64,000 nt of DNA from Halobacteriovorax sp. HLS (lineage in GTDB: Bacteria; Bdellovibrionota; Bacteriovoracia; Bacteriovoracales; Bacteriovoracaceae), in contig NZ_QOCL01000001.1 in the NCBI RefSeq assembly GCF_004006665.1, forward strand, positions 434,001 through 498,000, given 5' to 3'. The notes under the pieces are model-generated. The model was not told the origin of the DNA. It saw only the letters and a program-made list of their open reading frames with translations, and made no database searches. This document shows, piece after piece, positions 48,460 to 54,305 of this stretch. Within the stretch, counting starts at the first letter, position 1, and each line of letters starts with the position of its first letter. The position numbers and the translations under genes were made by a program.

Positions 48460-49800
48460 CTAGTTATCATCAGTAGAAAAAGCAGGATTCTCGAAACTAG
48501 TATAAGGACCTACCCAAGATAATTTGGCCGTCCCTGTTTCACCAGCACGGTTTTTACCAACTATAATCTCAGCTATTCCAGGCTCTTTTGTATCAGGGTT
48601 ATAATATTCATCTCTATAAACGAACATAATAATATCAGCATCCTGCTCAATTGCACCAGATTCCCTTAAGTCAGAAGTCATCGGACGTTTATTAGGTCTT
48701 GCCTCAACACCACGGTTAAGCTGGGAAAGTGCAATCACTGGACAACCAAGTTCCTTTGCCATGGACTTTAGACCCCTAGACATTTCAGAGATCTGCTGTT
48801 CTCTAGGAAGGTTTTTAGTACTAGCACTCATTAACTGAAGGTAATCAATTATTATTAAACCAATACCGGACTCAGTCTTAATTTTACGACACTGAGACTG
48901 AATATCTAAGATAGTTGAATCACCAGAATCATTTATATAGATCGGATATTGTGAAAGTTCTTGAACCGCTTTACCAATACTTCTAAGGTCAGTATCTAAG
49001 AAGTTCTTTTGCCTAATTCTCTTAGAGTCTACTTTTGCTTTTTGAGAAAGAAGACGCATTGAAAGTTCGTTAGATAACATCTCCAGAGAGAAAATTGCCA
49101 CAGGTAGACCAGAGGCGGCACAAGCATTTTGTGCGAAGTTAAGGGCCAAAGCCGTTTTCCCCATAGCAGGACGAGCAGCAAGTACAATGAGCTGGCCAGG
49201 TTGGAGACCTAATAACATCTCATCAACTTTAGGATACCCTGTAGTCAGTCCATGAATCTCTCCTGGCTTTCTAGAAGTATCTTCAAGCTCTTTTAGATTA
49301 AGTTTGAGGCAGGAGTTTAGTTTCTGCATCTTTCCAGACTTGGCCTCATTAGTTAATTTAAAAAAACTAGACTCTACTTCTTGAATAAAGTCTTCAGGCT
49401 TACCACCGAAGTCATAACCCATGGCCGCGACTCTCTCCGCAGTCCGGACAACCTCGCGCATACTGGATTTATCTTTAACAACCTTAGCGTAATGATAAAT
49501 ATTTGCGGCAGAGGCTTGATCTTCTACAATTCCCATAACGGAAGCTTGACCACCTACTTCTTCAATTTTACCTAGTTCGGTTAATTTAGAGCAAACAGTA
49601 ATGAGATCAATTGGTTGGCTACTATTATTTAAGTCAGTAATGGCTTCATAGATTACGCCATATTGAGGATGATAGAAGTCCTCTCTCTTTAGTTTTAAAT
49701 CACTCATTTCATCAAAAGAATTACCATCCATAATTAGACAACCAAGTAATGATTTTTCTGCTAATAGATCGTGTGGAAGTTGCTTGAGATTTCTCTCCAT
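48460..49800 (-). CDS. dnaB: Replicative DNA helicase DnaB
   Basis: A 446-residue hexameric helicase. The N-terminal primase-interaction domain (HDLLAEKSLLGCLIMDG) is followed by a linker and the RecA-like domain with Walker A (AARPAMGKTALAL), Walker B (IIIDYLQLM) and the H4-like QISEMSRGLK segment. AGGAG precedes ATG 49800; an earlier in-frame start at 49839 lies within a terminator hairpin region. Lies after rplI in the rpsF-rplI-dnaB order common in bacteria. Confidence 0.96.
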   Translation of the reverse strand: MERNLKQLPHDLLAEKSLLGCLIMDGNSFDEMSDLKLKREDFYHPQYGVIYEAITDLNNSSQPIDLITVCSKLTELGKIEEVGGQASVMGIVEDQASAANIYHYAKVVKDKSSMREVVRTAERVAAMGYDFGGKPEDFIQEVESSFFKLTNEAKSGKMQKLNSCLKLNLKELEDTSRKPGEIHGLTTGYPKVDEMLLGLQPGQLIVLAARPAMGKTALALNFAQNACAASGLPVAIFSLEMLSNELSMRLLSQKAKVDSKRIRQKNFLDTDLRSIGKAVQELSQYPIYINDSGDSTILDIQSQCRKIKTESGIGLIIIDYLQLMSASTKNLPREQQISEMSRGLKSMAKELGCPVIALSQLNRGVEARPNKRPMTSDLRESGAIEQDADIIMFVYRDEYYNPDTKEPGIAEIIVGKNRAGETGTAKLSWVGPYTSFENPAFSTDDN

Positions 49801-49834
49801 AACTTTCTCCTGAATAATTTGAGGGGGATTTAAA

Positions 49835-49861
49835 AACAAGGCCTAGAGCAAGCTCTAGGCC
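49835..49861 (-). terminator. Hairpin between rplI and dnaB
   Basis: On the minus strand GGCCTAGAG and CTCTAGGCC form a 9-bp stem with loop CTTG, followed by TTGTTTTT. It may partly end the ribosomal-protein transcript before dnaB. Confidence 0.75.
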
Positions 49862-49877
49862 CAAACAATAAGATCAA

Positions 49878-50492
49878 TTATGATCTTAAAATTCTGTTAG
49901 CTTCTTCTTTAAGTTTTTCTTCTTCAGTAAGCTCTTTTACTTCTTCAGTTTCAACTTCAACAGTCTCACCGTTAGCAGCAGCTTCTGCAGCAGCAGCTTT
50001 CTTTCTTTCAGCATCTTCGTGCTTCTTTTTCATCTCTTCTGCTTGAACAGGATCGATTACAACATTTACTTTGAAAGAAGCTTCAACACCATCAACAAGT
50101 TTAGCAACAACATCAAATGTTCCTAAAGCTTTGATTGGAGCAGATACAGAAATCATTCTCTTCTCAAGAGAGATCTCTTCTTTTGCAAATTCTTTAGCGA
50201 TTTCTAAGTTAGAAACAGCACCAAAAAGTTTACCTGAACCAGCAACTTTTCTTACGAATTCGATTGTTCTACCTTCAATTTTCTTTGCAATTACAGATGC
50301 TGCAGCTTTTTCTTCAGCGATCTTCTTAGCAAGAACTTTTTGGTGGTGGTTTAATTGTTTTGTATTTGCATCATCAGCAAGTACTGCAAATTTACCTGGG
50401 ATAAGGTAGTTTCTAGCATAACCGCTAGATACGTTAACGATTTCCCCGATATTTCCAAGAGTATTTACTCTCTCAGTTAAGATAACTTTCAT
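49878..50492 (-). CDS. rplI: Ribosomal protein L9
   Basis: Residues 1-150 are canonical L9: MKVILTERVNTLGNIGEIVN, GYARNYLIPG, the long helix, and a C-terminal rRNA-binding domain (IKALGTFDVVAKL). Residues about 150-204 form an extra highly charged Lys/Glu/Ala tail (EEKLKEEANRILRS) absent from most L9 proteins. It overlaps the upstream DUF2232 gene by 4 nt. Confidence 0.95.
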   Translation of the reverse strand: MKVILTERVNTLGNIGEIVNVSSGYARNYLIPGKFAVLADDANTKQLNHHQKVLAKKIAEEKAAASVIAKKIEGRTIEFVRKVAGSGKLFGAVSNLEIAKEFAKEEISLEKRMISVSAPIKALGTFDVVAKLVDGVEASFKVNVVIDPVQAEEMKKKHEDAERKKAAAAEAAANGETVEVETEEVKELTEEEKLKEEANRILRS

Positions 50493-51538
50493 ATTATATC
50501 TCCTTCATTATTATTTTTTTTTTGTAAGAACTTTCTAAAATTCACCCATAAGTCTAACACTCCCAACAGAGCAAGAACTTGATATCCTGCAAAGATTGAA
50601 AAGATGACTATAAAGCTTCTAAAGAATCCGAAAATTCTAAATTTATCAAGCGCGTCCGAGACGATTCCAAAACCTTGAAAAAAGTAAAAGATAGCTAATG
50701 CATAAACAACATTCCACCCAACTAAAGTAAGAAGCTCACTCTTTAAAACATAAGTTCCAAGAGGAATGAACGCCATGGCTAAAATTAGTATGAATATAAA
50801 TTGTTCAGGCACTTTAAAGCGCACAAAATCCTTCATTGTAAAAGGATAATCATGAATTGATTTCCAAATACGTGAGTTTCTCATAAGCATGAATTGTGAC
50901 ATCCACAGAATAAAGAAAACTCCAACAAAGGCCCCTCCAATTGAAAGCTCTAAAATTCTAGTCGCGATCTCTTTAGGGTACTTAATTATATAGGCCCAAT
51001 CATCGGCTTGAGCACCGCCAGTTGCCATAATTTCATTATAGCTAGGACTTGATTTTATAGTTTGTCCAATTACTTGAACTTGCTCTGTAACCAGATCAAT
51101 TGCAGATTTTTCACTGACAATTAAAATCCCACCTACAATAAGTGATATTAATGTAAAAATAAAAAAGCCGTTCTTTATAAGACCTATAACAGGGTTTACT
51201 TTTTTCCAAACTACATTAGCCGTTAAATAGGCCATTAATGCTAGAACATTAAAGCCAACTCCTAAACTTTGAAAGCCTGCTAAACTTGGAATTGCAATAG
51301 ATATCGCAAGAATAATTGCCCCAATTGATAGAGTCATTATCCAAGTCTTCTTCGCTCCATAGAGTAGAAAAGCTGTAGAAAGTGGAACAAGTGCAAACAC
51401 ACATAATGGTCCTAAAGAAGATAATATCAAAGAAACGACACCTAAGAAGATGAGCTTCCCATTAGTTAAATCACCAATTACCTTCTCCTTCGAGTTGGTA
51501 GATGTTTTAACGTATGTATTATCTTGGTCAGAATTCAT
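50489..51538 (-). CDS. DUF2232 (YybS-like) membrane protein
   Basis: A 349-residue protein with about eight membrane segments, of the DUF2232 family. Its place between rpsF/rpsR and rplI is the usual position of DUF2232 genes. Segments supporting this are GFNVLALMAYLTANVVWK and FYFFQGFGIVSDALDKF. The function is unknown. It follows the S6-S18 gene by 18 nt and overlaps rplI by 4 nt. Confidence 0.8.
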   Translation of the reverse strand: MNSDQDNTYVKTSTNSKEKVIGDLTNGKLIFLGVVSLILSSLGPLCVFALVPLSTAFLLYGAKKTWIMTLSIGAIILAISIAIPSLAGFQSLGVGFNVLALMAYLTANVVWKKVNPVIGLIKNGFFIFTLISLIVGGILIVSEKSAIDLVTEQVQVIGQTIKSSPSYNEIMATGGAQADDWAYIIKYPKEIATRILELSIGGAFVGVFFILWMSQFMLMRNSRIWKSIHDYPFTMKDFVRFKVPEQFIFILILAMAFIPLGTYVLKSELLTLVGWNVVYALAIFYFFQGFGIVSDALDKFRIFGFFRSFIVIFSIFAGYQVLALLGVLDLWVNFRKFLQKKNNNEGDII

Positions 51539-51556: not shown

Positions 51557-52180
51557 TTATTCAGCAAAAGTATTAGTAATGTGACTAACTAGACCCATGT
51601 TTCTCGCTCTTTTAATAGCAGCGTCAGCAAGTCTATGACTCTTACGACTGATACCTGAAACACGGCCTGGATTGATCTTACCAAATTCATTGATTAACCA
51701 ACCGTAAGTCTTAGGATCTTTCCAATCTGGAGTTATACAGTTTGCAGCAAACCAACATGCTTTTCTTCTTGCAAATCTCTTCTTATCTTTTTCAAGATCT
51801 TTATCTGCATCACCGTCATCAACGATTGATCCATTAAATTTCTTAGAAAATGGAGACTTAAAAGTTTTAGCGAATTTTTCACCTTCTTCTTTAGTGTCGC
51901 CAACTTTTACGAAAATTTTCTTAAGGATAAGTTCGTTGTTCTTTAGACGTCTTTCAATTTCTTTAAGAGCGTCACCGTTTCCAGAAACAACTAGGTAAAG
52001 ATAGTGACCTGTCTTAATACCGTTTGAAGTGGCTTGAGCAAAGTGCTTGTTACCCCAATCATCAGTTAATAAAACTTCACCTTTAAATTCTGAAACTACT
52101 TCAGCAACCATTGTATTAACTGCTGCTCTTTGTTCTTCTGTAGCTTCCGTCTTAGCCACGATGGCCAATTCATAAATCAT
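51557..52180 (-). CDS. Ribosomal proteins S6 and S18 fused in one ORF
   Basis: A single 207-residue frame encodes both partners of the S6:S18 dimer of the 30S platform. Residues 1-96 are S6 (YELAIVAKTEATEEQ, DDWGNKHFAQA, GHYLYLVV, NNELILKKIFVKV). Residues 97-137 are a Lys/Asp-rich linker. Residues 138-205 are S18: RRKACWFAANC, WLINEFGKINPGRVSG, and the conserved AIKRARNMGLV. No stop or start codon with a ribosome-binding site separates them. GGGAGG is 5 nt before the ATG. The usual independent rpsR gene is not in the operon. Confidence 0.93.
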   Translation of the reverse strand: MIYELAIVAKTEATEEQRAAVNTMVAEVVSEFKGEVLLTDDWGNKHFAQATSNGIKTGHYLYLVVSGNGDALKEIERRLKNNELILKKIFVKVGDTKEEGEKFAKTFKSPFSKKFNGSIVDDGDADKDLEKDKKRFARRKACWFAANCITPDWKDPKTYGWLINEFGKINPGRVSGISRKSHRLADAAIKRARNMGLVSHITNTFAE

Positions 52181-52185
52181 GTAAA

Positions 52186-52225
52186 CCTCCCGGACAATTT
52201 ATGGCCCTAACCCGGCGGTTAGAGC
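52186..52225 (-). promoter_or_regulatory. Hairpin and RBS in the S6-S18 leader
   Basis: On the minus strand GCTCTAACC and GGTTAGGGC form a 9-bp stem (one G-U) with loop GCCG, 12 nt before the GGGAGG site. Known S6:S18 leader motifs are stem-loops with a CCG element that bind the protein pair for autoregulation; this hairpin has CCG in the loop. Confidence 0.45.
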
Positions 52226-52249
52226 GAGATTCTTCTTAAATGTTCGCAC

Positions 52250-53084: not shown

Positions 53085-54305
53085 ATGAAAAACTTAAAAT
53101 CTGAGTTTCTTCCACCGGGTGGACTTTACTTTAGAACAACACCATCTTTAATATCTACCACTCTAGGTTCTTGCGTTTCGGTTATAATTTTTGACCCTAT
53201 TAAAATGACAAGTGGAATTTGCCATTATCTTAATTCATTTCCTGAGCAAAATTCTAAGCATCATGAGAATGAATACGGTATTTTTGCAATTGAAAACCTA
53301 ATTCAAAAGTTTCTACAAAATGGCTCTATGCGAGCTTCCTTAAAAGCGAAAATATACGGAGGAGCAAATGTCACTGGGGATAAATACACTGGATTGCAAT
53401 TATGTCAGAACAATATTTCTATTGCGATAGACACTCTCGATAAACATGGAATTCCAATTCTAGATCGAAATATTCGAGGTAAATTTGGAAGAGAGATAAC
53501 ATTTAATACTTCAACTTTTGAAGTCACCTTAAAAACTTATGATCCTTCGAATATAAAAGGTATTGATGAAATTTTTGAATATATAACTTTTAAAACTGGC
53601 AATGAGTCGGAGACCAGAGCATCTGTGTTTCATGCTGAAATACGCTCACATATGAGAGCCTTAGGAATAACAGACTACATAGAATATAAAGACTTAGTTT
53701 TATCAAAACAAAAAATTTCTCAAGAGCTAATCTCAAAAATTACAAATCATACTACAGAATGGTTTCGCTACTCTACTCTACAAAGAGAAATATTAGACTT
53801 TGTTAAAAATAGGCAAGACCTTCAAAAGCTAGAAGTACTTAGTGCTGGATGCTCAACAGGTCAAGAGCCTTATAGTATTGCGCTCTTTTTAAAAGAATAC
53901 TCCAACTCATTAAAATATAAGATTACAGGTATCGATGTAGATTCTAAAAGTATTGAAATAGCAAAGAAAGGGGAATACAAAATAATTGAACAAAAGTTCA
54001 TACCTAATATTTATCAAAGTAAATTAAAGGTTAATGCCAATCACTTTACTATATCAAATATCATCAAGGACAACTGCTTTTTTGAAACTCGAGATTTAAG
54101 AAAGATCTTATCATTAGAAAAAAAATTTGATTTGGTCATTTGTTTAAATGTGCTCATGTACTTTTCAAACAAAGATATACAAAGAATTACTGATAATTTC
54201 GCGATGAAATTAAAAAAAGATGGTCTACTATTCGTGAATATTAAACAGAAAATTGATCATAATTCATTCGAGAAAGTATCAGATGGGGTATTTAAAAGAG
54301 TTTAA
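53085..54305 (+). CDS. CheD-CheR fusion (receptor deamidase and methyltransferase)
   Basis: A 406-residue protein joining two chemoreceptor-modifying enzymes. Residues about 10-165 are CheD: LGSCVSVIIFDP with catalytic Cys30, His47 (spacing of 17 as in T. maritima CheD), AKIYGGANV. Residues about 180-406 are CheR: a helical N-terminal part, HTTEWFRYS, the SAM motif LSAGCSTGQEPYSIALF, IDVDSKSIEIAKKGEY and FDLVICLNVLMYFS. CheD deamidates glutamines of receptors and CheR methylates the resulting glutamates, so the fusion unites successive steps on the same substrate. No other che gene is near. The ATG has no ribosome-binding site. Confidence 0.88.
   Translation: MKNLKSEFLPPGGLYFRTTPSLISTTLGSCVSVIIFDPIKMTSGICHYLNSFPEQNSKHHENEYGIFAIENLIQKFLQNGSMRASLKAKIYGGANVTGDKYTGLQLCQNNISIAIDTLDKHGIPILDRNIRGKFGREITFNTSTFEVTLKTYDPSNIKGIDEIFEYITFKTGNESETRASVFHAEIRSHMRALGITDYIEYKDLVLSKQKISQELISKITNHTTEWFRYSTLQREILDFVKNRQDLQKLEVLSAGCSTGQEPYSIALFLKEYSNSLKYKITGIDVDSKSIEIAKKGEYKIIEQKFIPNIYQSKLKVNANHFTISNIIKDNCFFETRDLRKILSLEKKFDLVICLNVLMYFSNKDIQRITDNFAMKLKKDGLLFVNIKQKIDHNSFEKVSDGVFKRV

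Follow-up and report, generated by a model that had tools for sequence, protein, structure and literature searches.

A fused gene for ribosomal proteins S6 and S18, conserved across the Bacteriovoracia, retains an S6:S18-type leader and encodes an S18 lacking the zinc ribbon in the forms sampled

To our knowledge, bacterial ribosomal proteins form a nearly fixed parts list. S6 and S18 of other bacteria are synthesised as individual proteins that subsequently form a pair, and the structure 1g1x together with bacterial ribosome structures represents this S6:S18 heterodimer (bS6, bS18) of the 30S platform. In E. coli, S6 is glutamylated at its C-terminus, and S18 is zinc-less and retains the first Cys. 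Longer chains containing a ribosomal protein include the ubiquitin fusions RPS27a and RPL40, whose precursors are known to be processed, and the L9 fusion model PRK14538. The rpsF_leader, or S6:S18 r-leader, was reportedly studied by Fu in 2014 and Matelska in 2013. In E. coli, this leader comprises an H1 stem holding the Shine-Dalgarno (SD) sequence, an H2 stem and a conserved pair of cytosines, on which regulation by the S6:S18 complex depends (PMC4647458).

The locus described here resembles the S6:S18 heterodimer in that both domains are complete, S6 matching in fold and S18 in sequence, and in that it is in an operon with rplI, but one polypeptide replaces two. Like RPS27a, RPL40 and PRK14538, it places a ribosomal protein within a longer chain; unlike in these, both fused partners are ribosomal and touch each other in the ribosome. 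The open-access papers searched contained no prior description of an S6-S18 fusion, and ribosomal proteins are not mentioned in two genome papers on the Bacteriovoracia group.

Both domains in a single reading frame

The window, that is, the whole 64,000-nucleotide stretch of Halobacteriovorax sp. HLS DNA that was analysed, had been proposed in a first-pass annotation to encode S6 and S18 in one uninterrupted frame. Pfam searches bore this out. A 207-aa ORF on the minus strand (51557..52180; ATG start, TAA stop) contains an S6 domain (PF01250, residues 3-92, 51905..52174, minus), scoring 60 bits against a gathering cut-off of 27, and an S18 core domain of the zinc-less type (PF01084, residues 149-197, 51590..51736, minus), scoring 51.5 bits against a cut-off of 21. 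The NCBIfam S18 model TIGR00165 spans residues 136-202 of the ORF (48 against a cut-off of 38.75), and the NCBIfam S6 model scores slightly below its cut-off (41.5 against 42.9). Following the first-pass proposal to look for another rpsR, the whole genome (3.84 Mb, 99.98% complete) was searched and yielded one S6 and one S18 match, both being the fused ORF; likewise, E. coli S18 used as a query against the whole genome matched the fused locus alone, with no second S18 elsewhere. The fused rpsF-rpsR is the sole S6 and S18 gene of this genome.

AlphaFold2 modelling on 36 fused sequences gave a pLDDT of 86 and a pTM of 0.80, with confidence lowest at residues 121-140 and 161-180. In Foldseek searches, the S6 part matched S6 chains of ribosomes with E values down to 1.8e-9. 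The fused profile matched ribosomal S18 chains and S6 chains, and no single listed chain spans both domains.

Next downstream of the fused gene lies a DUF2232 membrane protein gene (50489..51538, minus; Pfam), overlapping by 4 bases with rplI for L9 (49878..50492, minus; Pfam and NCBIfam), and dnaB is located further downstream (48460..49839, minus; Pfam and NCBIfam). An adjoining 406-aa ORF on the plus strand (window 53085-54305) carries CheD and CheR domains and is another fusion.

Distribution, S18 zinc ribbon and origin of the fusion

The distribution survey comprised genomes of one phylum, including 129 of the family group to which the locus belongs, with S18 detected in 118 and S6 in 119. 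According to its named records, which include Halobacteriovorax, Bacteriovorax and kin besides many metagenome bins, this group is the Bacteriovoracia, mostly predatory bacteria. Comparison of the locus across these relatives, also suggested at first pass, revealed that, of the 118 family genomes with an S18 match, 110 encode both proteins in a single open frame, 203-252 aa long; these genomes cover dozens of genera and include cultured isolates. Among the named loci, a contig scan with class-specific peptides, the result of which bears on this class alone, called 78 of 80 fused by script; L267, which begins with GTG, is also fused, and L302 represents the interrupted G071 frame described below. 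Fused named records include Halobacteriovorax marinus 36_234_T64 (76% identity), Bacteriovorax sp. DB6_IX and BSW11_IV. These data confirm that the fusion is real and conserved across a bacterial class. Annotation pipelines or marker-gene sets built for two separate proteins can assign the fused gene a wrong label.

Separate S6 and S18 genes occur in five early-branching family genomes (G020, G058, G059, G060 and G064). G110 and G120 were rejected as two-gene genomes because contig ends account for both apparent splits, the G110 contigs overlapping within the fused frame. In G071, the frame of S6, linker and S18 (L068, G071:C61; L302) is interrupted by a single in-frame TAA in the linker, and its S18 is without the usual start codon. 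This TAA may reflect a MAG error, readthrough or an unusual start; other long frames in the G071 regions, inspected for an alternative genetic code, end with TAA, which makes such a code less likely.

Across the remaining 28 families of the phylum, the S18 frames among the best matches listed are 74-155 aa long, too short to hold both domains, and thus none of these matches outside the family combines S6 and S18. In families f2-f11, which we read as the Bdellovibrio side, S18 adjoins L28 and L24 (seen in L123 and L124) and S6 is located elsewhere in the genome; S18 at these loci (L123-L132) is zinc-less, and the S6 leader is still there in several. One genome, G326, has two S18 matches among the matches listed. 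An additional separate S6 of the Bdellovibrio-side type was seen in G074 (L074, G074:C102), its first 50 residues being identical to those of G204 (L162); this is likely a contaminant contig.

The zinc pattern CxxC...CxxH is kept in S18 of the five two-gene relatives (CWFCAKK...GLCAKHQR). None of the 71 fused sequences retains the second Cys of CxxC, its place being taken by S, T, K, A or a different residue, and wherever the first position of CxxH could be read, it too is a residue other than Cys; with the second and third Cys replaced, the sampled fused forms do not belong to the zinc type. C142 of the window protein is the invariant first Cys, which the zinc-less E. coli S18 retains too, and position 145, the second Cys of CxxC, is Ala. 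The first-pass remark that C142 and C148 are kept in spaced form fails because the fused S18 has no zinc ribbon and because C148, which is no zinc position, is replaced by Asn in three of the four congeners. The ribbon has therefore been lost in the fused forms sampled, and, compared to zinc and zinc-less S18 forms generally, the loss here coincides with fusion inside one bacterial class.

Outgroups with adjacent S6 and S18 genes mostly carry them directly consecutively. In the rpoB tree, the two-gene genera are placed near the family base with weak support. When the fused sequences and G071 were constrained to one clade, the likelihood rose (p-AU of 0.62 for rpoB and 0.96 for S6+S18), and both trees thus agree with a single origin. 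From these trees we infer, without regarding it as proven, that the fusion arose once within the Bacteriovoracia; two neighbouring genes would have been joined, the former C-tail of S6 and the acidic/basic extension at the N-end of S18 probably supplying the linker. The two-gene state could possibly be a secondary fission instead, but the two-gene S18s retain the full set of zinc ligands, and for this reason the two-gene state is favoured as ancestral. The fusion is usable as a phylogenetic marker.

The leader RNA

An rpsF-type leader element that includes the SD sequence and the start codon precedes the fused gene (52178..52231, minus; covariance model R1, E 5.7e-12). Its hairpin H2, GCUCUAACC-GCCG-GGUUAGGGC (52204..52225, minus), shows strong covariation across the class, with both-side changes in 101 cells vs 34 in shuffles and a covariation of 0.549 vs 0.161 when shuffled and at most 0.188 when slid. 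The outer helix H1 has CUC as its 5' side (52226..52228, minus), pairing with the SD GAG. The segment 52187..52193 (minus) carries the conserved CC (52193-52192), next GG and finally GAG (52189-52187), which is the 3' side of H1 within the SD. The evidence for H1 is modest, as a single slid register reached a similar score on one measure. H1 in outgroups reads CCUU/AAGG vs CUC/GAG here, with a compensatory change from a C-G to a U-A pair in 9/9 outgroup sequences, and the leader CC is kept in 21/21 sequences.

The layout (A)CUC-[GCUC..loop..GGGC]-spacer-CC(A/G)GGAGG-AUG was found upstream of nearly every fused gene, and the covariance model, which seldom matches at other sites, places the leader at this gene in about 100 of 125 genomes. 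The leader is also present in the two-gene genome G064 and in G071, and G058-G060 have a different leader, with CCG. In other families of the phylum, the model matches before separate S6 genes (G318, E 1.1e-7; G268, E 4.6e-5), and many outgroups carry, as judged by eye, ACCUUGCUC...GGGCUUUAACCGAAAGG upstream.

The hallmarks of rpsF_leader, namely a conserved hairpin, an SD-bearing outer helix and cytosines before rpsF, are all present. In common with the E. coli element, the leader is directly upstream of rpsF and has an SD-containing outer helix, an inner H2 and two cytosines, a likeness judged from the published text (PMC4647458); unlike that element, it has helix sequences of its own and gave no Rfam match at the gathering score, nor up to E 5 in the window. 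We conclude that the fused gene retains an S6:S18-type leader. By analogy with the S6:S18 complex in E. coli, the fused protein probably binds the leader hairpin, the outer helix of which includes the SD, and would thereby repress its own translation and control its own production. The fusion offers a natural way to test whether such autoregulation requires a free heterodimer. A second leader copy followed by a truncated S6 start was observed in G077 (L313, G077:C76:8810-8865); it is closest to another genus, suggesting a fragment or a foreign contig.

The linker and the fate of the fused chain

The first-pass annotation had described a 40-residue Lys/Asp linker. A stretch does join the two domains (residues 93-148, 51737..51904, minus), but it really consists of the S6 C-tail, an acidic stretch and the S18 N-tail with C142. 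Across 36 aligned proteins, a conserved S6 C-tail (YK.P.SK..GS) is followed by a short variable acidic part and then by EKDKKRFARRKACWF; the basic S18 N-tail of the window linker reads EKDKKRFARRK. In two-gene family members, the tail of S6 is KNYKSPF-like, and S18 opens with an acidic extension finishing DKDRRMFSRKKSCWF; the conserved linker stretches are thus the tail of S6 and the N-tail of S18, both also present in two-gene relatives. Between position 95 and the first Cys of S18, the 71 fused sequences have 36-52 residues, always in frame. Where the C-end of S6 is internal, C-terminal glutamylation of the E. coli type would be impossible.

We favour, with a probability of about 0.8, the interpretation that the product is a covalently tethered S6:S18 heterodimer and a self-repressor, originating from a single fusion. 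The fused chain would substitute for the heterodimer on the 30S platform, so that dimer formation would be intramolecular and S6 and S18 would be made 1:1. It is likely, too, that the two core proteins are permanently fused, with the chain intact in the ribosome, the zinc ribbon lost and the ancestral leader kept, the protein acting as both heterodimer and repressor. Underlying this are the fusion itself, its sole copy, its class-wide conservation, the leader structure seen by covariation and the loss of zinc ligands; a single chain in the mature ribosome, a fixed stoichiometry and one-step assembly, with a benefit to assembly, would be expected from the fusion. The class-wide fusion also offers a natural experiment on the extent to which 30S assembly is limited by S6:S18 pairing.

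Alternatively, the product may be a precursor that a protease cuts in the linker to release ordinary S6 and S18, the fusion merely equalising synthesis. The linker is variable in its middle, where model confidence is also lowest, and processing is known from the ubiquitin-ribosomal fusions. However, no conserved cleavage-like motif was found in the variable part across the 36 aligned proteins, and the conserved stretches are the tails shared with two-gene relatives, making cleavage rather unlikely. Additional synthesis of S18 alone by internal initiation appears very improbable: an in-frame ATG, GTG or TTG occurs somewhere in the linker of 37 of the 71 fused sequences, and 5 of the 71 have a linker start with an SD-like sequence, but the positions are not conserved, and the window gene has none. 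Indeed, the absence of an internal start claimed at first pass holds for residues 96-150, which are free of ATG, GTG, TTG, CTG and ATT. That the fused gene is extra-ribosomal, the ribosome using another S18 or none, is hardly credible, given that the genome has no other S6 or S18, that the S18 core residues DWKDP, GKI.P.R, HQR and AIKRAR are kept, and that rplI and dnaB lie downstream. Finally, nothing specific speaks for a stop codon deleted by sequencing or assembly error, apart from many relatives being metagenome bins; the chance of this is negligible, and such an error was ruled out as the source of the fusion by the identical architecture in 110 genomes, cultured isolates among them.
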